Part shown: positions 12,451 through 56,940 of the stretch, piece by piece
Layout: each line of letters opens with the position of its first letter
How positions within the stretch are numbered: the first letter of the stretch is position 1
Origin: Lagopus muta
Taxonomy: Eukaryota; Chordata; Aves; Galliformes; Phasianidae
NCBI RefSeq assembly: GCF_023343835.1
Contig: NC_064433.1
Coordinates: 28,520,214 to 28,584,213 of the forward strand
Direction of reading: 5' to 3'
Length of the DNA stretch: 64,000 nucleotides
Made by a program: the position numbers and the translations under genes
Notes under the pieces: generated by a model
The model's database searches: none
The model's input: the letters and a program-made list of their open reading frames with translations, nothing else
Told to the model about the DNA's origin: nothing

Positions 12451-13355
12451 ATCACAGAATCACAGAATCACCCGGGTTGGAAGGGACCCCAAGGATCATG
12501 TAGTTCCAACCCCCCTGCCTAGCAGGGCCACCAAACATTCACATTCAGATCAGGTTGCCCAGGACCCCGTCCAACCTGGCCTTAAACACGTCCAAGGACG
12601 GGGCATCCACAACCTCCCTGGGCAGCCCGTTCCAGGGCCTAACCACTCTCCTTGTGAAGAACTTCCCCCTAACATCTAACCTAAATCTTCCCTCCTTCAA
12701 CTTAAAACCATTTCCCCTAGTCCTGCTGTTGTCAGCCCTTTTGAAGAGTTTACTCCCCTCCTGGGTGTAGGTTCCCTTCAGGTATTGATAGGCTGCAATG
12801 AGGTCACCCCGCAGCCTTCTCTTCTCCAGGCTGAACAAGCCCAACTCCCTCAGCCTGTCCTCATAGGGGAGGTGCTCCAGCCCCCTGATCATCTTAGTCG
12901 CCCTCCTCTGGACCCTTTCCAAAATCTCAATGTCTTTCTTGTACTGAGGGCTCCACACCTGGACACAGTACTCCAGGTGGGGCCTCACAAGAGCCGAGTA
13001 GAGAGGGACAATCACCTCCCTGTCCCTGCTGGCCACCCCTCTCCTGATGGAGCCCAGGATCCCATTTGCCTTTCGAGCTGCCAGAGCGCACTGCTGGCTC
13101 ATGTTCAGTCTCTCGTCCATCAGGACCCCCAGGTCCTTCTCTGCCGAGCTGCTCTCAAGGACCACTCCTCCCAGCCTGTACAGGTGCCTGGGGTTCTTCC
13201 GGCCCAAATGCAAAACCCTGCACTTTGCCGTGTTGAACCTCATCAGGTTCACCTGAGCCCAGCCCTCCAGCCTGTCGAGGTCCCTCTGAATGGCATCCCT
13301 TCCTTCCACCGTATCAACCGCACCACTCAGCTTGGTGTCGTCAGCAAACTTGCTG
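12451..13355 (-). mobile_element. CR1 LINE 3' end, 5'-truncated, relatively young
   Basis: The element is antisense: its 3' tail lies at the left (ATCACAGAATCACAGAATCA, the CR1 octamer-like tail) and its truncated 5' end at about 13355. The sense strand carries the C-terminal end of the CR1 ORF2 in one uninterrupted frame (12545-13309), and just upstream of that the FADDTKLSG segment containing the reverse transcriptase active-site FADD. Low decay suggests a younger CR1 subfamily. The 5' junction sits on a 15-bp tandem duplication (13351-13380). Confidence 0.93.
12545..13309 (-). CDS. CR1 ORF2 C-terminal fragment (post-reverse-transcriptase region)
   Basis: This is a 254-codon open frame with no stop or frameshift, from [11 protein letters not shown] to [11 protein letters not shown]. 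It is the C-terminal part of the CR1 pol-like protein downstream of the RT palm domain, with the familiar blocks [28 protein letters not shown] and [20 protein letters not shown]. The ATG is an internal methionine, not a real start. The upstream frame stays open to about 13355, where the insertion is truncated. It lacks the endonuclease and most of the RT, so it should be inert. It lies antisense inside the last CNTN1 intron. Confidence 0.85.
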
Positions 13356-13380
13356 AATAAAGTATTGCTGAATAAAGTAT
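13351..13380. repeat. 15-bp tandem duplication at CR1 5' junction
   Basis: TGCTGAATAAAGTAT occurs twice in perfect tandem (13351-13365 and 13366-13380), followed by a related TGTATAAAGT. The first copy overlaps the last CR1 bases (TTGCTGA), so the duplication covers the junction where CR1 first-strand synthesis ended. Confidence 0.85.
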
Positions 13381-36466: not shown

Positions 36467-36471
36467 GATAG
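36467..36471. repeat. Left target-site duplication GATAG
   Basis: GATAG directly precedes the TG that opens the 5' LTR and is repeated exactly at 47781-47785 after the CA that closes the 3' LTR. A 5-bp duplication is what ERV-L-type integration makes. Confidence 0.75.
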
Positions 36472-36797
36472 TGTGTGGGAACTGCTGAGTCACGGCCTGA
36501 ACCTCTGATTGATCACCTGAGTCGAGCCATGAGTCAGCCAGAGGAGCACAGCTGAAGGCAATTCACCTGTGCTGCTGGCAGGGGGTGGAGCCAGTCTCCA
36601 CCTGTCCTAGACCTATTGAAGAGCTGGCTACCAGTGGGGAAGGATCTCGTCTGGAGATTGCCTCTGCTGGTGTTTTGTGAGTGAGCCCAGGATAGGGGTA
36701 AGCTTTCTATTTATTCTCTTTTGTTATCGTTATCTGCTTTGCCTAACTCCCTTGTTTATTTTGTGATTATAACATCCTAATATTCTTTGATTATACA
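36472..36797 (+). repeat. 5' LTR of the ERV-L-like element
   Basis: A 326-bp TG...CA sequence from TGTGTGGGAACTGCTGAG to CTTTGATTATACA. It aligns end to end with the 3' LTR at 47457-47780 with small indels. No AATAAA is seen, so the R/U5 boundary is not assigned. Confidence 0.88.
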
Positions 36798-36799
36798 CT

Positions 36800-36817
36800 T
36801 GGTGAGCCAGGCAGGCC
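36800..36817 (+). promoter_or_regulatory. Putative primer-binding site
   Basis: TGGTGAGCCAGGCAGGCC starts two bases after the 5' LTR, the place where a tRNA 3'-end complement is expected, and opens with the usual TGG. I cannot assign the priming tRNA with confidence. Confidence 0.5.
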
Positions 36818-36838
36818 AAATATACTAAAATTTACATC

Positions 36839-36943
36839 ATGTCTTTTCTTTGGAATTTCTATAAATGGGTCAAGGGGGAGAACAATACTCCTCTAGAGAA
36901 AACGTTTCCAGGGCAGATCCCAGTGGACAAAGAGACTCTATGA
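36839..36943 (+). pseudogene. gag-like N-terminal remnant of the ERV-L-like element
   Basis: The first ATG after the primer-binding site opens 34 codons (MSFLWNFYKWVKGENN...) and then meets TGA. Its position fits the start of gag. From about 36915 the DNA instead aligns with the integrase C-terminal region of the right-hand pol segment (46520 onward), so gag, protease, RT and most of integrase are missing and only the leader end is original. Confidence 0.45.
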
Positions 36944-37678
36944 AACCCAGCGGGATCTGAATGAAAGGCTAGAGACAGCAGACTGTGAAAATGCTGCAGA
37001 TGACACGGGCCTCCCTGCTTAGGATCCAAATTATGGGCACTGATAATTGGGTAAGACCTTATATAGGCAATGAAAATGACCTTCTGCCCTCTGCCCCTGA
37101 GAATCTAGAACCAAGTACCTATGGAACAAAATGGCTTTGGAGGGTGCAGGTAGGACAGAAGTGGCGTGGCCTCCTTGCACCTTGGGGGAGATTATTGGAG
37201 CTGGGAGGCTCAGTAGGCGCTCCAGTAACTGGTACATGGCCTACGGATATTGTGGTCAATACTCCAGGTTTTGTTACTAAGGGGACCCAAATCCTGACTC
37301 CTGGTCCCCTGAAACATCTGTACTACTCCCCATGAGTCTTTGAGTCCCTAGAATTACTGGAAGGAGCAAAATGCCATTGAAGCGTTCCAGTATTGCTGTG
37401 AGATCAAGCACAACACCTGGTGATGGCCAATGTGGGGCTGACGGAACACAAGATGGACCTGCAACAAACAACTGCATGCCTCCAGCAACACCACCGAGCA
37501 TCGGCCCACGAGAGAACATGAACTTCAACCACAAACCCATCATTAATGGTCTTAGGCTGTGTCAACCTGCATCACGATGGGCTGTTGTATAAATGTCACG
37601 GTGCATTGGATCCCTGCACTAGGGAAGGCTCAGCCTCCAGCTGACTCAGTCGTTGCTTTGTGCTGTGAAGGGGTGCAG
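36925..37678 (+). pseudogene. Second-copy integrase C-terminal end and 3' region
   Basis: Aligns with 46545-47456 (shared words GATCCAAATTATGGGCACTGAT, CACCTTGGGGGAGATT, CATGGCCTAC, GTGAAACATCTGTA-type ending), but is visibly more diverged than the outer LTRs are from each other. About 170 bp present on the right (46910-47085) is missing. One frame is open from 36985 to 37335. It ends in a purine-rich GTGAAGGGGTGCAG just before the divergent LTR, in the place of a polypurine tract. This is a decayed piece of a related but different subfamily. Confidence 0.7.
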
Positions 37679-38013
37679 TGTATGGGAACTGTTGAGTCAC
37701 GGACTGAAGCAGTGACTGAGCATCCAGGGGAAGGAACAGCTCAGCACTGGGAGCACAGGTGAAGGCAGTTCAGCTGTGCAAATGGAAGGGCTGCACCTCT
37801 CCTAGATCCCATTTAGGGGCTGACTCCCATTGGGGAAGGATCTCTTTGTGGCGATCTGTTGTTGGTGGAGCCTTCCCCTGAGAACTTGAAATCTACTGAT
37901 ATGGGCAATCTTATCACCATCGCTTATAGCACCTTTCTATCCTACTGGTCCTCCTGTCTCTAGACTTCTGGTGTAATGATATTGGTCATTACATCATATT
38001 GATTGGTTACACA
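37679..38013 (+). repeat. Divergent internal LTR
   Basis: Starts TGTATGGGAACTGTTGAGTCACGG, like the outer LTRs, and keeps recognisable blocks (GAGCACAGGTGAAGGCA, CTGCACCTCTCCTAGA, TTGGGGAAGGATCTC) to about 37880. The last 130 bp are only weakly comparable, and the end at TTGGTTACACA is chosen for its length (335 bp) and its CA. It is clearly more diverged than the outer pair. Confidence 0.6.
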
Positions 38014-38275
38014 CTACAAGGGCTCAGAGGAGTTGCTGGCAATGGCAGGTGCATTTACAGAGTCTCCTGGGTAGCACGAGATAGAAAGTGCACCTTTCAC
38101 CCATGGGAATCAAAGGCATTGAGCAAGCATTCATCCACGTGTGCTCAGACTCTGGGAAGGAAGGAGCGCTCCTCCTGCTGCTGTGCTGTGGAGCACTGCT
38201 CCTCCTGCCTCCCATCACCTCCTGTTGGGGTCCAGGTGGAGATGGGAGAAAGAGAAAGCATGTAGTTCATAGCCA
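38014..38275. other. Unassigned spacer before module copy 1
   Basis: About 260 bp, GC-richer toward the right, with no match that I can see elsewhere in the window. It contains a CTCCTCCTGCTG/CTGTGCTGTGG stretch of low complexity. No feature is called. Confidence 0.5.
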
Positions 38276-38339
38276 GACATGGGCAAAGCACCATCAGACA
38301 TTCAGAGATGAACAACTGATCATTAATTAGACGGACGGT

Positions 38340-38560
38340 GGAAGGCAGCAGCCCCACGCCAGGCAGCCCCAGCCCTGCTATGTCACGGCCACGTTGCCAG
38401 GGGCAGCCTGCAGCTCCAGGAAGCCCCCTGCAGCCGGCACAGCCATGTCACAAGAGCACAGCGCTGGGGGGGGCTGTGTTCCAGAGCCAGCTTGGTGTCA
38501 CAGCAGCCCGGAATGCTGAGCAGGAGGGCAGTGCCAGCCCGAGATCGCCGCCGAGTAGCC
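38340..38560 (+). promoter_or_regulatory. Candidate promoter/5' UTR of module copy 1
   Basis: A GC-rich segment immediately 5' of the ATG, almost unchanged in copy 3 (42810-43031). It holds two TGTCAC words (38391 region and about 38446), GTTGCCAGGGGCAGC at 38393 resembling an RFX X-box, and a run of seven G at about 38467. No TATA box is evident. The promoter role is inferred from position and conservation only. Confidence 0.3.
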
Positions 38561-39785
38561 ATGAGCGAGGGCTGTGGTGGGCAGGAGCAGCCCATGGAGA
38601 CGGATGGGGCCGCTCCTCCTCTGCTTCACAGCCACACGCGGGGACAGAGACACAGCAGGATGGCGAGACGCCCCTGTTCTCAGCCACAGCACAGATAAGT
38701 CGCCCCCAAACTGCAGCCCGCCTCGCTCCTGCGGGACCCTGGCAGCTCCCCATGGTTTCCCTTGCCCTTGTTGCCAATGTTTGGTGCTGCTGTGCTGAGT
38801 CCTGACCTCACTCCAGGTGCTGGCACCGGACCTGCTGATGGCAGAGGCTTTTCCACACAGCCCTGGGGACAGCAACCCGGTGAGCAGGGCTGTGTAGGGG
38901 AGGGCAGCACAGGGCAGCAGGGCAGGAGGCTGCTCCTTTCATTCCTTCCCCTCTGCCTTGCAGATGGACAGCCCAACACAAATGGCTCCAGATGACTCCA
39001 AGTGCTGGAGCAAACCCCATCATACTGGTGTCCTACAAAAAAGGTACGTCAGCTCCCGAATGGGAGCCTGTCGTGCTCCAACAGGACCATGGAAGCTCCC
39101 AAAAATCCCCCTGCCCTCACCCCAACATTTGGTGCTGCTGTGCTGAGTCCTGACCTCACTCCAGGTGCTGGCACCGGACCTGATGATTGCAGTGGCCTTT
39201 CCACACAGCCCTGGGGACAGCAACCTGGTGAGCAGGGCTGTGCAGGGGAGGGCAGCACAGGGCAGCAGGGCAGGAGGCTGCTCCTTTCATTCCTTCCCCA
39301 CTGCCTTGCAGAGGGACAGCTCAGCACAAATGGCTCCAGATGACCCCAAGTGCTGGAGCAAACCCCATCATACTGGTGTCCTACAAAAAGGGTATGTCAG
39401 CTCCCAAACTGGAGCCTGTCGTGCTCTGACAGGACCATGGAAGCTCCCAAAAATCCCCCTGCCCTCACCCCAACATATGGTGCTGCTTTTCTGAGTCCTG
39501 ACTCGCTCCAGGTGCTGGCACTTGAACTGCCGATTGCAGTGGCTGTGTCAACGTGGCATTGGTGACACAGGCAGCCCCAAATGGCCAAGGAAACCATTTT
39601 TACAGCAGCAACCCGGTGAGCAGGGCTGTGCAGGAGAGAGCAGCACAGGGCAGCAGGGCAGGAGGCTGCTCCTTTCACCCTTCCTCCCCTTTTGACTTGC
39701 AGATGGACAGCCCAGTCAGGACCTTCTGTGCTACACACATCAGTGCCTCCAGGAACCACATGGATTGCGTGAAACAGAACTCTGA
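38561..39785 (+). CDS. Predicted spliced ORF of module copy 1 (hypothetical, 106 aa)
   Basis: A hypothesis. Exon 38561-38694 (134 nt, starting MSEGCGGQEQPMETDG) leaves phase 2. The terminal 104-nt block 39512-39615 is open only when entered in phase 2 (CWHLNCRLQWLCQ...), and its exit phase runs into the last block 39703-39785 (DGQPSQDLL...) to a TGA. The total is 321 nt, exactly 107 codons, and the same path works in copy 3. Acceptors (CTCGCTCCAG, TTTGACTTGCAG) and the donor at 39616 (CCG|GTGAGC) are good. The first donor site reads ATAAGT instead of GTAAGT in both copies, a serious problem. The product is unknown and Cys/Gln/Pro-rich. It could equally be a non-coding transcript or a dead gene. 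Confidence 0.3.
38817..38879 (+). other. Exon-like block A1 (copy 1)
   Basis: 63 bp between CTCACTCCAG and CCG|GTGAGC. It is open in frame 0 (VLAPDLLMAVAFPHSPGDSNP). If entered from the ATG exon in phase 2 it meets TGA after six codons. Confidence 0.45.
38964..39043 (+). other. Exon-like block B1 (copy 1)
   Basis: 80 bp after a strong acceptor (CCCCTCTGCCTTGCAG) and before AAG|GTACGTCAG. Frame 0 reads MDSPTQMAPDDSKCWSKPHH and onward, open throughout. A length of 80 shifts phase by two per unit. Confidence 0.45.
39165..39227 (+). other. Exon-like block A2 (copy 1)
   Basis: 63 bp, a second copy of A1 with a GATGATTGCAG variant. The donor is CTG|GTGAGC. It is open in frame 0. Confidence 0.45.
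39312..39391 (+). other. Exon-like block B2 (copy 1)
   Basis: 80 bp after CTGCCTTGCAG and before GG|GTATGTCAG. It starts AGGGACAG instead of ATGGACAG and is open in frame 0 (RDSSAQMAPDDPKCW...). Confidence 0.45.
39512..39615 (+). other. Terminal exon-like block A3 (copy 1), 41 bp longer
   Basis: Begins like the 63-bp blocks (GTGCTGGCAC) but diverges after about 30 bp and is 104 bp long, ending in the same AGCAACCCG|GTGAGC. Only the phase-2 frame is open; both other frames hit stops. Confidence 0.45.
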
Positions 39786-39810
39786 AGATGAGGATGGAAC
39801 AAGAGGCTGA
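39703..39810 (+). other. Terminal exon-like block B3 (copy 1)
   Basis: Starts ATGGACAGCCCAGTC after TTTGACTTGCAG. Frame 0 runs 36 codons to TGA at 39808-39810. The frame expected from the spliced model ends at TGA 39783-39785. No donor follows; the region runs to the polyadenylation signals. Confidence 0.45.
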
Positions 39811-39975
39811 AGGGGATGGATGGGCCCTACTCAGAAATACCGCAGGCACCACGTCCAGACGAGAAAGAAGCACCGTAACTGAGCGCTGCTGAGGCCGACA
39901 TGGAAGTTTAGGAGCCACAAAGACTGTCAGCCTTCCTGCCTTGACCCCAGATGACCACCCAGAAGACAACACTGA

Positions 39976-40008
39976 ATTAAAGACTAATTTTAAAACCTTC
40001 AAAATAAA
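39976..40008 (+). terminator. Polyadenylation signals of module copy 1
   Basis: ATTAAA at 39976-39981 and AATAAA at 40003-40008 close the module. Both are kept in copy 2 (41874 and 41901). Copy 3 keeps ATTAAA at 44645, but its second site has become AATGAA. Confidence 0.55.
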
Positions 40009-40764
40009 CTGTCTCTCATTCCTTACACCCGTGGTGCTTCTTCCATCTCGTGGCATCCACAGTGCACACTTTTGGGGGGTGGGAGGGCTTCCTTGCTGTC
40101 GTCGTCTCTACATATTAATGCATCTCTGTGCACCTGGATGCTGGAACACTCAGCACAGCACACCAATACCTTCCCTGCCTCCCCTGCTGTCACAAGACAT
40201 CCCCAGCACACCTCACTGCTAACACAGCTGCTCACGGCACCAAGTTTCACTTTCAAGGCGCTCCTGATGGTCTTCATGGAGCAGAGCGTCTTCATGGAGC
40301 AGAGCGTCTCCAACAGGCACTGAAACGCAGCACTCCTGCCACTGTAGGGCTTCCCCATCTCACAGAGCCCCTTCAGCTCCCAGCCATGGTTGCATCTTAC
40401 TGCACCCGGGGCCCCAGCCCACCCAAAGTCTCCTGCTTCCACAGCTCACAGTTTTATTCCCCGTGCTTTAATGCCACAGCTTTCCATGAAGACAAAGAGT
40501 TCTGAACAACTTCTCTTCTCCTTTGTGGCCGCCTTCGAGATTTCTCCCCTCCAAATTCACAGATCGCCTAAGAGCCTCAGAAAGAAAGGAATTTTGCAGG
40601 CTGCGGGATGGGAGCAGGTGGCTGCTCTGGCATTACCACAACCATTTCCTTTGCATGGCTCTTCAAAGGCACTGCAACTGGCAGTGACACTCAGAGAAGC
40701 AAGGAACACATACAGCTTTTCCTGGGAAGTGGGAAGGGGTGGTACAGTACCCTGTTGTGTGGAG

Positions 40765-41523
40765 AGGAGTGCAGTGGGATCCACCCGAGGCTGCTGAGGG
40801 AGCTGGTGGAGCTGGTGGAGCTGGTAGCCAAGACGCTTTCCGTCATCTCTCGGCATTCCTGGTCAGCTGGAGGGCTCCCAGAGGACTGGGGGCTTGCCAG
40901 CGTGACCCTATCTCCAAGAAGAGTCAGAAGGAGGATCCGGGGAACTGCAGGCCTGTCAGCTCTGTGCCAGGTACGCTTATGGAGCAGATCATCTTGGAAA
41001 GGTCATGGGGTATGTGCAGGACAAGTGGGGGATCGGGCCCAGCAGCGTGGGGTTGTGACAGGCAGGTCCTCCTTGAGCAACCTCATCTCCTTCCGTGAGC
41101 CACTGACCCACCTGGAGGATGAGGCAAAGGCTGCTGACGGAGTCTGGTCGACTTCAGCACAGCCTTTGGCACCGCCTCCCACAGAATTCTCCCAGCCAAG
41201 CAGCAGCCCATGGCTGGGACACGTGCACTCTTGGTGGGTAAAGAACTGGCTGAGGGCTGGGCCCAGAGAGCGGAGCTGCATGGAGTCACATCCAGCTGGC
41301 AGACGGTCACCAGTGCTGTTCCCCAGGGCTCGGTGCCAGAGCCTGTCCTGCTCGATGTCTTTACTGAGGACCTGCATGAGGGCACTGAGTGCACCTCAGT
41401 ACGTGTGCAAATGACACCACGATGGGTGGAAGCATCCATCAGCCTGAGCATAGGAAGGGCCTACAGAGGGTCCTGGACTGGCTGATTGCTGGGCTGGGGC
41501 CAAGGGGATGCAGTTCAACAAGG
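40765..41523 (+). mobile_element. CR1 ORF2 internal fragment, sense, decayed
   Basis: Begins with the CR1 segment reading HPRLLRELVELV, then PEDWGLASVT, a frame slip, PISKKSQKEDPGNCRPVSS, and continues with several shifts and stops to the ATGCAGTTCAACAAGG block near 41521. It covers the RT domain middle and lacks both ends. It replaces the 5' part of module copy 2. The 268-codon frame through it is a by-product of GC content. Confidence 0.88.
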
Positions 41524-42010
41524 AAGCAGGGCACAAGGCTGTTCCTTTCTTCCTCCCCCTCTGCCTTGCAGATGGGCATCCAGACCAAGATGGAACCAGA
41601 GCAGGACACACGCCTCTCCTCAGCTCTCTGATTAGTCTCCATGCTTACAGGACAGACAAGCCAGCCACAAATGTTACCCTTTCTCAGTTCTAAAGGACCC
41701 TGGCAGCTCCCCAGGATCCCCCTGCCCACACCCCAACATTTGATACCGCTTTGCTGAGCCCTGGCCCCACTGCAGGTGCTGGCACTGGAATTACTGGACC
41801 AAGGATGAAAGTTTAGGAGCGATGAGACTGACAGCCTTCCTGCCTCAGACAACCACCGAGAAGATAACACAGAATTAAAGACTAATGTAAAAACCTTCAA
41901 AATAAACTTTCTCATTCATTACACCCACAGTGTTCCTTCCGTCTCATCACATCCAAACTGTGAGCTCTTATTGTCACCATCTCTTTATACTTATGCACCT
42001 GGATGTCGTG
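41524..42010 (+). repeat. Gene-like module, copy 2 (5'-truncated)
   Basis: Directly after the CR1 the sequence resumes as module: CCCCTCTGCCTTGCAG ending 41571 with a B-type block (ATGGGCATCCAGACCAAG...), the GGACCCTGGCAGCTCCCC spacer, a CACTGCAG acceptor with an A-type block at 41776 (GTGCTGGCAC), then the tail with ATTAAA (41874) and AATAAA (41901). It is much more diverged than copies 1 and 3 are from each other and is clearly non-functional. Confidence 0.75.
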
Positions 42011-42370
42011 GTATCACAGAACGGTTTGGGTTGGAAGGGACCTTGAAGCTCACCCGCTGCCAACCCCCTGCTGTAGGCAGGGACACCTCCCATAGCCCAG
42101 GTTGCTCACAGCCCCATCCAGCCTGGCCTTCAGTGCTTCCCGGGAGGGGGCATCCACAGCCTGGCTGGGCAACCTCGGCCAGTTTCTCACCACCCTCACG
42201 GGAAAGAATTTCTTCCCAATCCCTACTCCAAACCTACCCCCCTCCAGTTGGAAGTCATTTCTCCTCATCCTGCCTCCACCTGCCCATATAAAAAGTCCCT
42301 CCCTCCCCAGCTTTTCTGTAGGTCCCCTTCAGGTCCTGGAAGGCTGCTATAACGTCCGCCAGGAGCCTGT
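42011..42370 (-). mobile_element. CR1 3'-end fragment, antisense, in copy 2 flank
   Basis: GTATCACAGAACGGTTTGGGTTGGAAGGGACCTTGAAG opens the reverse complement of a CR1 3' end. The ORF2 end follows (CATCCACAGCCTGGCTGGGCAACC, CAGTTTCTCACCACCCTCACGG). It is truncated near GCTGCTATAACGTCCGCC. Confidence 0.92.
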
Positions 42371-42744
42371 TCCATTCCTGCACTCCAGTCATGACAGCCA
42401 TCCCACCACATCTCAGAGATGCCGGTGACATCACAGCCCTGTAGGCACACACACACCTGACACACTTGTTGCTCCTTTTACCATGCTCTGTGCATTATGA
42501 GCAGGCTCCCATTGAGGCACATTTACCTACTGCAGTTCTCTTATCCTGCACCTTTGCTGCTCTCTTACTGCCCTGGGATCCAGCTCAGGCCCACAGCATC
42601 CATTACCACCTCCAGCCTCAAAGTGGGATGCACTGAGGATCCCCTCCTTGGCTACTTTCAATCAAAGCCCCCCGATGACAGTGGAAAGCTGGATGCCAAA
42701 GATGGCCTTCCTCTTCTCACAGACCGGGCAGTGACGTTCACGCT
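42371..42744. other. Spacer before module copy 3
   Basis: About 370 bp without recognisable features. It does not resemble the spacer left of copy 1, which shows that the shared module begins sharply at GACATGGCCAAAGC. Confidence 0.5.
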
Positions 42745-43031
42745 GACATGGCCAAAGCACCATCAGACATTCAGGGATGAACAACTGATCATTTATTAGA
42801 TGGACGGCAGAAGGCAGCAGCCCCACGCCAGGCAGCACCAGCCCTGCTATGTCACGGCCACGTTGCCAGGGGCAGCCTGCAGCTCCAGGAAGCCCCCTGC
42901 AGCCGGCACAGCCATGTCACAAGAGCACAGCGCTGGGGGGGGGGCTGTGTTCCAGAGCCAGCTTGGTGTCACAGCAGCCCGGAATGCTGAGCAGAAGGCC
43001 AGGGCCAGCCCGAGATCGCCGCCGAGTAGCC

Positions 43032-44604
43032 ATGAGCGAGGGCTGTGGTGGGCAGGAGCAGCCCATGGAAACGTATGGGGCCACTCCTCCTCTGCCTCAC
43101 AGCCACACGCGGGGACAGAGACACAGCAGGATGGCGAAACGCTCCTGTGCTCACCCACAGCACAGATAAGTCGCCCCCAAACTGCAGCCCGCCTCGCTCC
43201 TGCGGGACCCTGGCAGCTCCCCATGGTTTCCCTTGCCCTTGTTGCCAATGTTTGGTGCTGCTGTGCTGAGTCCTGACCTCACTCCAGGTGCTGGCACCGG
43301 ACCTGCTGATGGCAGTGGCCTTTCCACACAGCCCTGGGGACAGCAACCCGGTGAGCAGGGCTGTGTAGGGGAGGGCAGCACAGGGCAGCAGGGCAGGAGG
43401 CTGCTCCTTTCATCCCTTCCCCTCTGCCTTGCAGATGGGCAGCCCAACACAAATGGCTCCAGATGACCCCTAGTGCTGGAGCAAACCCCATCATACTGGT
43501 GTCCTACAAAAAAGGTACGTCAGCTCCCAAACTGGAGCCTGCTGTGCTCCGACAGGACCATGGAAGCTCCCAAAAATCCCCCTGCCCTCACCCCAACATG
43601 TGGTGCTGCTGTGTTGAGTCCTGACCTCGCTCCAGGTGCTGGCACCCGACCTGCTGATGGCAGTGGCCTTTCCACACAGCCCTGGGGAAAGAAACCCGGT
43701 GAGCAGGGCTGTGTAGGGGAGGGCAGCACAGGGCAGCAGGGCAGGAGGCTGCTCCTTTCATTCCTTCCCCACTGCCTTGCAGAGGGACAGCTCAGCACAA
43801 ATGGCACCAGATGACCCCAAGTGCTGGAGCAAACCCCATCATACTGGTGTCCTACAAAAAAGGTACGTCAGCTCCCAAACTGGAGCCGGCCGTGCTCCGA
43901 CAGGACCATGGAAGCTCCCAAAAATCCCCCTGCCCTCACCCCAACATATGGTGCTGCTTTGCTGTGTCCTGACCTCACTCCAGGTGCTGGCACCAGACCT
44001 GCTGATTGCAGTGGCCTTTCCACACAGCCCTGGGGACAGCAACCTGGTGAGCAGGGCTGTGCAGGGGAGGGCAGCACAGGGCAGCAGGGCAGGAGGCTGC
44101 TCCTTTCATTCCTTCCCCTCTGCCTTGCAGATGGACAGCCCAACACAAATGGCTCCAGATGACTCCAAGTGCTGGAGCTCACCCCTCCATACTGGTGTCC
44201 TACAAAAAAGGTACGTCAGCTCCCAAACTGGAGCCTGTCGTGCTCTGACAGGACCATGGAAGCTCCCAAAAATCCCCCTGCCCTCACCCCAACATGTGGT
44301 GCTGCTGTGCTGAGTCCTGACTCACTCCAGGTGCTGGCACTTGAACTGCCGATTGCAGTGGCTGTGTCAACGTGGCATTGGTGACGCAGGCAGCCCCAAA
44401 TGGCCAAGGAAACCATTTTTACAGCAGCAACCCGGTGAGCAGGGCTGTGCAGGAGAGAGCAGCACAGGGAAGCGGGGCAGGAGGCTGCTCCTTTCACCCT
44501 TCCTCCCCTTCTGACTTGCAGATGGACAGCCCAGTCAGGACCTTCAGTGCTGCACACATCTGCGCCTCCAGGAACCACATGGATTGTGTGAAACAGAACT
44601 CTGA
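43032..44604 (+). CDS. Predicted spliced ORF of module copy 3 (hypothetical, 106 aa)
   Basis: The same hypothetical path as copy 1: 43032-43165 (134 nt), 44331-44434 (104 nt), 44522-44604 (83 nt), giving 107 codons including TGA without an internal stop. The first donor again reads ATAAGT. The extra 348-bp unit lies in the long first intron of this model. Because copies 1 and 3 are close paralogues, the match between them is weak independent support. Confidence 0.28.
43288..44210 (+). repeat. 348-bp tandem units in module copy 3 (three units)
   Basis: The B blocks at 43435-43514, 43783-43862 and 44131-44210 are spaced exactly 348 bp, and the A blocks at 43288-43350, 43636-43698 and 43984-44046 likewise. 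B1 carries a TAG in frame 0 (GATGACCCCTAG) where copy 1 has AAG. Because 348 is divisible by three, frames stay open through exon-like and intron-like parts alike, including the 178-codon frame at 43777-44313. Confidence 0.88.
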
Positions 44605-44656
44605 AGATGAGGACCCCAGACGGCCACCAAGAAGCTTGCACACAATTAAAGACTAG
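44331..44656 (+). other. Terminal exon-like pair and tail of module copy 3
   Basis: A 104-bp block (44331-44434) with donor CCG|GTGAGC, then after GACTTGCAG the block at 44522. In frame 0 this runs past the deletion to TAG at 44654-44656; in the spliced-model frame it stops at 44604. ATTAAA is at 44645. Confidence 0.4.
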
Positions 44657-44793
44657 TTGAACAACCTTCAGAATGAACTTTCTGTTTCCTTACACCTGTG
44701 GTGCTTCTTCCATCTCGTATCATCCCTACTGCTTACTCTGGGGAGGTTTCCTCGTTTTCTCCATCTCCTCCTATTTATGCATCTGTATATCAT

Positions 44794-45086
44794 GGAATCA
44801 CAGAATGGTTTGGGTTGGAAGGATCTTGAAGATCACCGAGTCCCATTGGCCTTCTGGGCTGCTGGCACACATTGCCAGCTCACGTTGAGGTTTCCATCCA
44901 CCAACACCCCCAAATCCTTCTCCTTGGGGCTGATCTCAAGCCATTCTCTGCCCAACCTCTGTGCTTGGGATTGCCCCCACCCAGCTGCAGGACCTCTCAC
45001 TTGGCCTTGTTGAACTCCATGAGGTTGGCATGGGCCTGCCTCTCCATCCTGCCCAGGTCCTCTGCATGGCATCCCTTCCTTCTGGA
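44794..45086 (-). mobile_element. CR1 fragment, antisense, with internal deletion
   Basis: GGAATCACAGAATGGTTTGGGTTGG is a CR1 3' tail in reverse. It jumps after GAAGATCACCGAGTC to an internal ORF2 part (CCATTGGCCTTCTGGGCTGCTGGC, CATGAGGTTGGCATGGGCC, ATGGCATCCCTTCCTTCTGG), skipping several hundred bp. It sits at the same place in the module flank as the CR1 in copy 2. Confidence 0.9.
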
Positions 45087-45479
45087 CTGTCATTTCTCCA
45101 TGCTTCAATGGCAGAGCATTCCATGATGACAAAGAGCTTTGAAGAACTTCTCTCCTTTGTAGCTGACTTCTAGACTTCTCCCCTCCACATTTCCATTCTC
45201 AGAAATTCACCTAAAAGCCTTTGCAAGAAAACATTACTGCAAGCTGGACAATGCCAGCTGCATGTTGCACAGTCACTGGGACCACGAACACAGCAAAAAA
45301 GAAACTCCCAGGGGAAACCCCAGGGTTCTCAGGTTCCCCTTGGCAAAGTCCAGCTCGGATTACTGAAGAATTGGGACCTACAGGGGACAGTGGTCCTATG
45401 GTGAAATCCCTCTCAAAATGGCTGATTGCCAGAGGAATAGTCTGTCCACATCTCCATTGGAAGAAGAACTTCAGAAGCT

Positions 45480-47125
45480 CCTAGGCCCAGTGAGTAACAC
45501 AGTGATGCATCAAAAGAAACATTGGTTGCTCCACCGGAGTCCCATTCCTGAAGATGCCTGGTACACAGATAGGTCCAGCAAGGGCAACCCGAGCTAGTGA
45601 GAGCAATAGCATCCCATCCCTCCACCAAGACAATCTGGTTTGACGAGGGGGATGGTCAGAGCAACCAGTGGGCAGAACTGCAAGCCGCGTGCATGGTTAT
45701 AACCAAGGAACCCGGTGGTGGGATCCTGAATATCCAACAGATAGTTGGGCTGTATACAGGGGGCTCACTCTTTGCATTGCACAGTGGGCCACCCAGGAAT
45801 GGACAATCCACGCCTGACCAATCTGGGGCAGAGATGTGTGGTTAGATGTATGGAATGTGCTTAAACACAGGACTGTACGTGTCTACCAGGTCTCTGGTCA
45901 CCAACCCCTACAGGCACTAGGAAACGACAAAGCTGACACGCTGGCCCAAGTGCAGTGGATTGAGAATTCACCATCTGAGAACATCACCCGTTGGTTACAT
46001 CAGAAGCTATGGCACAAGGACAAAAGACACTGTGGGCAGCTGCTGCAGCGTGGGGACTGCCCATACAGCTACCTGACATCACTCAGGCACGCCGAGACTG
46101 CGGTGCTTGCTCCAACATGAGATTGAGATCGTTGCCTGAAACAACAGCCCGTCTTGCTAGAGGATACAATCCTCTCCAGCGAAGGCAGGTCGATTACATC
46201 GGGCCCCTTCCTCGCTGCGAGGGGACAAGATACGCCCTGACCTGCGTCAACACTGCAAGTGGGCTACTGCAGGCCTATCCAGTACCGAGAGCAAACCAGG
46301 CATATATCATCAAGGCATTCACTAAACTGATATCTGCCTACGGGTCACCTCAAGTCATCGAGAGCGACCAAGGGACTCATTTTACCGGTGAAACAATGCA
46401 GTGCTGGGCATAAGAAAATAACATTGAATGGCGATTCCACCTGCCGTATAATCCAATGGGGGCAGGCCCCATCAAACGTTATAATGGTATTCTTAAGGCT
46501 GCCCTGAAGACAGACTCTCAGTCCCTGCAGGGGTGGACGAAAAGACTGTATGAAATCCTGCGGGACCTGAATGAAAGACCTCGAGACGGCAGACCCAGTG
46601 CCCTGAGAATGTTGCAGACAACATGGGCCACCCTGCTTAGGATCCAAATTATGGGCACTGATCATCACGTAAGACCCCAGATTGGTAACGAAAATAATCT
46701 TCTGCTCCCTGCCCCTGAGAATTTAGATCCGGGTACCCGTAGAATAAAATGGCCCTGGAAGGTGCAGGTAGGACCCAAGTGGTGTGGCCTGCTTGCACCT
46801 TGGGGGAGATTGTTGGAGGTGGGAGGCTCAGTAGTCCCTCCAGTAAAAGGTACATGGCCTACTGATATTGTGCTCACACTCTGATTTTCATTGCTAAAGG
46901 GACCCCCATCATGTCCCTATGGCAGATCAGGACACCTCCTTTGGTGCCTGATATCGTTATGCAGCCGCAGACATCCGGCCAGAAGGTATGGTACAGGCTG
47001 CCAGGACGTGCCCCAGTACAGGCGGAAGTGTTGACCCAGGATAGATATATGGCCTGTATCTTGCCCTGGAGAGCAGAACTTCCCCTCCTGGTACCTCTGA
47101 AACATCTGTATTACTCCCCGTGAGT
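45480..47125 (+). pseudogene. Decayed ERV-L-like pol: RNase H and integrase
   Basis: Successive frames carry an RNase H start (DAWYTDRSSKG, first Asp at about 45568), NQWAELQAA (acidic residue kept), then YTGGSLF where a third Asp would be expected, followed by stops and shifts. HQPLQALGNDKADTLAQ ends RNase H. Integrase follows: WLHQKLWH and CGACSNM (zinc-binding region), VDYIGPLP, ALTCVNTASGLLQAYPV, ESDQGTHFTG, a TAA after MQCWA, and GPIKRYNG, where Lys stands at the expected catalytic Glu. The C-terminal LAPWGRLLEVGGS block ends near 46850. Frameshifts and stops make it non-coding today. Upstream RT is absent. Confidence 0.85.
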
Positions 47126-47456
47126 CTGTGAGCCTGCAGGACCACCGGAAGGAACAAAATGCCATCAAGCGTTCCAGTGTTGCTGTCAGATCACGTACAA
47201 CACCTGGTGATGGTCTGCATGGGACTGGTGGAACATAGAAAGGACCTGCACCTCAGGACCTCATACCTCCAGGCACATCATTGAGCACTGGCCCATAGAA
47301 GAATATGGACATCCACTGATCATCACTCATCTTGAATTGTACCAACACACGTCGCGATAAAATTGTATAAGCGTCGCGATATAACAGATCTCTGTATTAG
47401 GGAAAGCTTACCCTTTAGTTAACCTGATCATTGGTTCATGCCATGAAGGGGTGGAG
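47126..47456 (+). other. 3' region and polypurine tract of the ERV-L-like element
   Basis: Runs from the last pol stop to the 3' LTR and aligns with 37335-37678 of the second copy. No env-like frame is present, as in other ERV-L elements. ATGAAGGGGTGGAG at 47443-47456 is the probable polypurine tract. Confidence 0.65.
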
Positions 47457-47780
47457 TGTATGGGAACTGCTGAGTCACGGCCTGAACCTCTGATTGATCA
47501 CCTGAGGCGAGCCATGAGTCAGCCAGAGGAGCACAGCTGAAGGCAATTCACCTGTGCTGCCGGAAGGAGTGGAGCCTGGCTGCACCTCTCCTAGACCTAT
47601 TGAAGAGCTGGCTACCAGTGGGAAGAGTCTCTTCTGGAGATCTGCTCTGCTGGAGTTTTGTGAGTGAGCCCAGGATAGGGGTAAGCCTTCTATTTGTTCT
47701 CTTTTGTTATCATAGTCTGTTTTGCCTAACTCTATTGATTGTTTTGTGATTATAACATCCTAATAGTCTTTGATTATGCA
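47457..47780 (+). repeat. 3' LTR of the ERV-L-like element
   Basis: A 324-bp TG...CA sequence, TGTATGGGAACTGCTGAG to CTTTGATTATGCA, matching 36472-36797 along its whole length. Confidence 0.9.
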
Positions 47781-55778: not shown

Positions 55779-56940
55779 CAGATGCCATTTACCTGGACTT
55801 GAACAAGGCCTTTGACATGGTCCCCCACCTCATCCTTATCTCCAAATTGGAGGGATGTGGATTTGATGGGCACACCCCTCGATGGATAAGAAACTGAAAG
55901 GCTGCAGACAGAAGGTGGTCATCACCTGGCTCTATGTCCAGGTGGAGGCTGGTAATGAGCGGTGTCCCCCAGGGGTCTGTCTTGGGACCAGTGCTCTTTA
56001 ACATCTTTATCAGTGACATCGATGACGGAATCGAGTGCACCCTCAGCAAGTTTGCTGACAACACCATGTTGAGTGGTGCGGTTGACAAGGTAGAAGGAAG
56101 GGATGCCATGCAGAGGTACCTTGAGAGGCTAGAAAGTGGGCCCAGGTGAACCTGATGAGGCTCAACACAGCAAAGTAAAGAGTTTTGCACTTGGGCCGGA
56201 GGAATCCCAGGCATCCGTACAGACTGGAAGGAGCGGTCCTTGAGAGCAGCCTTGTGGAGAAGGACTTGGGGGTCTTGATAGATGAAAAACTTAACATGAG
56301 CCAGCAGTGTGCTCTTGCAGCTTGAAAAGCAAATGGTATCCTTGGCTCCATCAAAAGAGGGGTGGCAGCAGGGACAGGGAGGTGATTGTCTCCCTCTGCT
56401 CTTGTGAGGCCCCATCTGGAATACTGTGTCCAAGTATGGAGCCCCCAGTACAAAAGAGACAGGGAGCCCCCTGGAGAGGGTCCAGAGGAGGGCCACAAAG
56501 ATCATCTGGGGACTGGAGCACCTCCCCTATGAACACAGGCTGAGGGAGCTGGCCTTGTTCAGCCTGGAGAAAAGAAGGCTGTGGGGTGACTTCATTGCAG
56601 CATTTCAGTACCTAAAGGGAGCCTTTAGAGGGGAGAGGAATCAACTCTTTGAAAGGGTTGATAACTGCAGGACAAGGGGAAATGGTTTGAAGTTGAGGGA
56701 GGGAAGATTTGGGTTGGATGTCAGGGGGGAATTCTTTACAGGAAGAGTGGTGAGGTGCTGGGACAGGCTGCCCAGAGAGGCTGTGGATGCCCTGTCCCTG
56801 GAGGTGTTCAAGGCCAGGTTGGATGGGGCCCTGGGCAGCCTGGTCTAGTATTGAATGGGGAGGTTGGTGGCCCTGCCTGTGGCAGGGGGGTTGGAGCTTC
56901 ATGATCCTTGAGGTCCCTTCCAGCCATGGCCATTCTGTGA
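55779..56940 (+). mobile_element. CR1 LINE 3' end, sense, including part of the RT domain
   Basis: Starts within the reverse transcriptase ([16 protein letters not shown]) and runs to the 3' UTR, ending GAGGTCCCTTCCAGCC and GGCCATTCTGTGA. Blocks in order are [20 protein letters not shown] (55958 onward), [11 protein letters not shown] (about 56050), CR1 C-terminal blocks, and an open end from 56426 to 56848 ending ARLDGALGSLV. The copy is 5'-truncated by most of ORF2 and has several frameshifts. Confidence 0.94.
56426..56848 (+). pseudogene. CR1 ORF2 C-terminal remnant
   Basis: 140-codon open frame with the usual C-terminal CR1 blocks ([55 protein letters not shown]). It is disconnected from the upstream RT frame by indels and lacks a genuine start. 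Confidence 0.8.

Follow-up and report, generated by a model that had tools for sequence, protein, structure and literature searches.

A re-duplicated, gene-like module of Lagopus muta from a family represented by the uncharacterised chicken gene model LOC100858183

Anatomy of the three copies

The window (the whole stretch of 64,000 nucleotides that we analysed) is AT-rich for most of its 64 kb and holds a GC-rich block at 37-47 kb. The module found there, read on the forward strand, consists of two long copies (~38276-40125 and ~42700-44790) and one truncated copy (~41518-42012). The initial annotation had counted three copies; three are present, but just two are long, and the third is a truncated, older piece lying behind a CR1-like fragment. 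Both long copies follow one plan, in which a 5' segment with an ATG exon leads into 348-bp units, each an A-B exon pair, followed by an exon A' and a terminal exon T with a poly(A) signal. Exon A measures 63 nt, B 80 nt and A' 104 nt, and the A-B intron 84 nt. Copy 1 has two A-B pairs and copy 2 three; Tandem Repeats Finder placed the 348-bp arrays at 38780-39543 and 43253-44362 and counted 2.2 and 3.2 repeats in them, respectively.

Copy 1 opens with its 5' segment and ATG exon (38276-38694, ATG at 38561; GC 0.64, CpG observed/expected ratio 0.44). It is preceded by a flank (38049-38275) that does not align with copy 2 and is common to the database protein P0001, whose residues 1-44 and 47-168 match 38049-38180 and 38198-38557 by tblastn. 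Then come A1 (38817-38879), B1 (38964-39043, acceptor at 38964 and donor at 39044), A2 (39165-39227), B2 (39312-39391), A' (39512-39615) and T (39703-40024, 3' end approximate), which carries ATTAAA at 39976 and AATAAA at 40003. The 5' segment and ATG exon of copy 2 span 42700-43165 (ATG at 43032); the alignment with copy 1 begins at 42745, and the match to P0001 at 42700. Its three A-B pairs (43288-44210), delimited by the 348-bp repeat and by splice-like borders, comprise A exons at 43288-43350, 43636-43698 and 43984-44046 and B exons at 43435-43514, 43783-43862 and 44131-44210; A' (44331-44434) and T (44522 to ~44680, ATTAAA at 44645) complete the copy. Copy 3 (41518-42012) retains a B-type exon from 41572, an A-type exon from 41776 and a 3' end with ATTAAA at 41874 and AATAAA at 41901. 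What cuts off its 5' side is a forward-strand fragment at 40740-41518 (borders approximate) that we take to be a CR1-like LINE. ATTAAA is thus present in all three copies and AATAAA in copies 1 and 3. The repeated blocks, the distinct terminal pair of A' and T and the polyadenylation signals named in the initial annotation were all recovered. Between copy 1 and the CR1-like fragment, an 18-bp unit is repeated 2.2 times with zero mismatches (40270-40309).

The 5' segments stand out by composition, as the initial annotation had noted. Only 53 of 6357 windows of 430 bases combined a GC content of at least 0.6 with a CpG ratio of at least 0.4, and all of them start at 38211-38471 or 42611-42921, which are the two 5' segments. 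CpG ratios were 0.40-0.50 in these segments, 0.17-0.18 in the rest of the copies and 0.15-0.16 in the flanks. The values at the 5' segments lie below the usual CpG-island ratio of 0.6; the CpGs retained there would fit a germline promoter. A scan of 38200-38700 for bacterial promoters and terminators returned nothing, the bacterial models being uninformative for a bird.

Splice-like borders recur throughout the module. GTGAGC follows every A or A' exon of the long copies (7/7), GTACGT or GTATGT follows all five B exons, and CAG precedes eight A-type and eight B- or T-type exons when copy 3 is counted. The ATG exon is present in both long copies, yet lacks a GT donor: by unit alignment it ends in CACAG/ATAAGT (border at the slash) in each of them. 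We counted 14 donor-like sites against 10.1 +/- 3.2 in 200 first-order Markov simulations, and 14 acceptor-like sites against 8.7 +/- 3.0, a mild excess over simulated sequence. Twelve of the donor-like and eight of the acceptor-like sites fall at unit borders, where the units, as copies of one another, are not independent observations. Those eight are the full set of B and T acceptors, while none of the eight A acceptors passed our simple threshold, so that the "good acceptors and donors" of the initial annotation hold for the recurrent borders and the B and T acceptors but not for the A acceptors.

The introns also carry G-quadruplex patterns. On the forward strand these occur in five of the seven A-B-type introns of the long copies (at 38887, 39235, 43358, 43706 and 44054) and are absent from the two that precede T; on the reverse strand they occur in the B-A introns, copy 3 included (39122, 39470, 41733, 43593, 43941 and 44289). 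Across 200 single-base shuffles of 38276-44790, the mean was 0.07 patterns and the maximum 1.

Duplication, probable homogenisation and the retroviral surroundings

Self-comparison aligned copy 1 (38276-39714) with copy 2 (42745-44142), with a shorter third copy from 41518. Over 38276-39789, copy 1 is 96.3% identical to copy 2 (56 differences in 1514 aligned sites), against 17 differences in 83 sites in the 3' end and 22 in 93 further downstream. The similarity extends past the poly(A) signals, pairing 39943-40125 with 44612-44784 and 40457-40603 with 45094-45246. Since introns are retained and the similarity runs beyond the poly(A) signals, it was DNA that was duplicated and not RNA copies. 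A CR1-like stretch begins at one and the same aligned position in copies 2 and 3 and is missing from copy 1. From the uneven similarity along the long copies, we infer that their 5' two thirds were probably homogenised after duplication by gene conversion or unequal exchange.

The 348-bp periodicity could also denote a repeat element, either a satellite-like array or an unknown transposon, with incidental splice-like borders. The splice-like sites exceed simulated sequence only mildly, and several relatives lie in other contigs, both of which agree with this explanation. Against it, the arrays hold just two or three units, the copies are alike in flanking DNA downstream of the poly(A) signals instead of stopping at common termini, the 64 kb contain no further copy of the module, and the chicken relative described below is a multi-isoform gene model. 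We regard a repeat element as very unlikely.

The module is flanked at 36470-37858 and 46533-47780 by partial retroviral copies that are equally oriented and have LTR-like segments, as pairwise identities indicate: 90.9% between 36470-36797 and 47455-47780, 80.9% between 36923-37296 and 46533-46913, and 70.7% between 37298-37858 and 47085-47644. The left flank includes an additional LTR-like piece (36470-36797), part of which (36470-36648) shares 71% identity with 37677-37844 as well. Pfam places an integrase core (rve, E = 1.8e-08) at 45979-46410, preceded by a weak RNase H match below cut-off (E = 0.08). The "retroviral context" of the initial annotation applies to the neighbourhood but not to the module itself, which showed no similarity to the flanking retroviral pieces in self-comparison and gave no Pfam match in three of its frames. 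Nor did we find any sign that the retroviral copies had carried the module. Among the windows listed, CpG ratios peak in the integrase region (45781-46331; 0.46-0.70) in spite of its interrupted frame, suggesting a fairly young insertion or low methylation.

Tandem duplication amid retroviral fragments is also what a piRNA or other small-RNA precursor locus within transposon-rich DNA might present. According to one report, chicken pachytene piRNA loci make up 0.98% of the genome, overlap 189 of 1526 tandem duplications and are enriched in transposons (PMC9925758). The likeness of the module to these loci lies in tandem duplication and transposon-rich surroundings (PMC9925758; PMC5383398). The module itself is unlike the flanking retroviral pieces, and we hold a small-RNA precursor to be highly improbable.

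Elsewhere in the window, no nameable host-gene exon was found among the 28 open frames listed outside 36-48 kb in a codon-usage ranking, which was headed by CR1-like frames. Pieces of LINEs, presumably CR1-like, include an oppositely oriented pair at 12460-13356 and 56043-56940 (83% identity over 906 columns), and the first of these still holds a 291-residue open frame.

Relatives in databases and the chicken gene model

We searched for relatives of the module among proteins, with a search that reaches just those sharing short exact words with the query. The 5' segment retrieved P0001 (E = 7.5e-20) and P0002 (E = 1.7e-11), and an open frame spanning two units retrieved P0003, P0004 and P0005. 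With the alignment of P0003 and P0004 as query, nine proteins were obtained: P0003-P0005, P0006-P0009, P0010 and P0011. The last two are Gallus gallus uncharacterized protein LOC100858183, isoform X2 (P0010, E = 8.2e-4 to the P0003/P0004 profile) and isoform X1 (P0011, E = 9.6e-4). In tblastn these chicken proteins matched the window with E-values down to 4.3e-18 (P0010) and 7.8e-18 (P0011), best in the region of copy 3. The peptides of the module, which the initial annotation had matched to nothing, thus do have relatives. All eleven (E 1e-3) match the window solely within 38049-44635.

LOC100858183 contains sequence related to A, to the A-B intron and to B, with a tblastn identity of at most 68% over 53 residues, to copy 3 (chicken residues 36-87 match it at 68%). 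Isoform X1 reads through A, the A-B intron, B and A, while X2 also reads A joined to B joined to A. This order of A, B and A, with junctions that fit the borders called here, is read from the protein alone, and it suggests that the 84-nt A-B intron may sometimes be kept in chicken transcripts. The long copies are more distant from the chicken proteins (43-54% identity in the A-B parts); in contrast to LOC100858183, their B exon has a GT donor of its own and shifts the frame, and stops interrupt frames through which the chicken proteins read.

Outside birds, exact-pattern scans of viral contigs found nothing, and related-locus scans of them matched 4 and 18 stretches, none of which tblastn confirmed. 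Likewise, in a non-bird collection of bacterial and archaeal genome contigs, an exact-pattern scan found nothing, and none of the 36 stretches matched by a related-locus scan was confirmed. That the family is lineage-specific is only suggested. We found no publication naming LOC100858183, and none among the papers listed is on the family as far as titles and abstract openings tell. No Rfam family was present in the window at gathering thresholds. Pfam gave no match for the module frames 38327-38695, 38320-38802 and 43717-44310, and nothing above cut-off for ten of the eleven relatives, with P0009 left out. A likeness between P0002 and APC_basic (15.5 bits where the cut-off is 25, E = 0.012) was taken as chance.

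Altogether, the module is real, gene-like and re-duplicated, and it belongs to an avian family that is unstudied and, in chicken, already annotated as an uncharacterised gene model. The relatives, LOC100858183 included, and the lack of Rfam or above-cut-off Pfam matches bear out the initial proposal of a gene-like family or non-coding transcript cluster. A previously unexplained stretch is now tied to an annotated gene model.

Coding capacity and the origin of the module

We further investigated whether the exons form an open frame. None of the three frames stays open through the A-B-A exon chain: frame 0 of A continues into frame 0 of B, whose 80 nt shift the next A into frame 1, and frame 1 of A is stopped in all five standard A exons, as is frame 2 of B in all five B exons. 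The frame through the A-B intron has a stop in three of seven units. Joins that skip B (A to A, or A to T) hold frame 0, so that B-skipping chains are open. Frame 0 of A' is stopped in both long copies; A and T are jointly open in frame 0, the T part ending after 35 codons in copy 1 and 44 in copy 2. Between the long copies, exons are no more constrained than introns, with 19 of 477 sites differing in exons A to T and 19 of 618 in introns, counts that depend for B2 and the next intron on the aligner having placed copy 2's additional unit within B2. From its ATG onwards, the ATG exon differs at 8 of 134 sites. The closed exon chain, the like differences in exons and introns and the AT at the first-exon donor together argue against a protein-coding gene, and the module probably encodes no protein. 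This gives grounds to doubt that the family as a whole is protein-coding.

We weighed against this a fast-evolving protein-coding family whose B-skipping joins would give short proteins, the copies here being recent pseudogenes or still coding by skipping B. The 63-nt length of A and the frame 0 shared by A and T would suit such a family, as would the modelling of chicken LOC100858183 by NCBI as a protein-coding gene with several isoforms. Between P0003 and P0004, the residues compared (20 of A and 28 of T) show no difference and the intervening intron is 93% identical, the pattern expected of a coding gene and opposite to that between the long copies. Yet the full exon chain is closed in every frame, A' has its stop in both long copies, exons and introns differ alike, P0003 and P0004 run in different frames late in T, and the relatives enter their common segment in differing frames of A. 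Moreover, the openness of the relatives' frames is biased because the database contains open frames only. We therefore consider a coding family unlikely, if worth keeping in mind.

The explanation that we favour, with somewhat better than even confidence, is that an unstudied avian family expanded here in tandem and was partly homogenised through gene conversion, the family being either a non-coding transcript that is spliced or a gene in decay. The expansion would have started from a multicopy bird sequence family, with LOC100858183 as its annotated relative, that has the layout of a host gene: a start rich in GC and CpG, repeated A-B pairs, short introns, a terminal exon and poly(A) signals. 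At a small scale, 348-bp exon-pair units would have been gained or lost, leaving copy 1 with two units and copy 2 with three; at a large scale, whole copies of ~4.5 kb would have been duplicated; later, gene conversion or unequal exchange would have evened out the long copies over their 5' two thirds. The most probable product of either long copy, now or in the past, is a spliced and polyadenylated RNA that specifies no conserved protein, the promoter activity, splicing and non-coding nature of the long copies being predicted from the DNA. Against this explanation stand the AT donor of the first exon and the failure of all eight A acceptors to pass the threshold, the CpG ratio of the 5' segments, which is below 0.6 and exceeded by that of the integrase region (up to 0.70), and the exon identity of P0003 and P0004 together with the protein-coding NCBI model of the chicken relative. 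Should the module be transcribed, it would offer a compact example of how exon pairs accrue through tandem duplication and are homogenised by gene conversion. FIRRE is a long non-coding RNA with repeated exons, and the likeness of the module to RNAs of this type, seen here in DNA, lies in tandemly repeated exon-sized units within a gene-like frame.

The A-B intron may deserve attention of its own. Over the 15 pairs of six B-type relatives (P0010 being dropped as a near-duplicate of P0011), mean ungapped identity was 0.81 in the intron segment, 0.44 in A and 0.29 in B. With P0008 and P0009, in which the B part is shifted, left out too, the six remaining pairs gave 0.84, 0.46 and 0.55. Because hits were selected by shared words, which favours a shared segment, this conservation is a lead and not a result. 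It would be in keeping with non-coding transcription units that form a family confined to birds, expand by exon pairs and have the G-rich 84-nt intron as their conserved working part, a proposal that we think quite unlikely to be right. Such an intron could act, for example, as a regulated retained intron or as a G-quadruplex element, and the chicken gene models would then hold both its retained and its spliced form.
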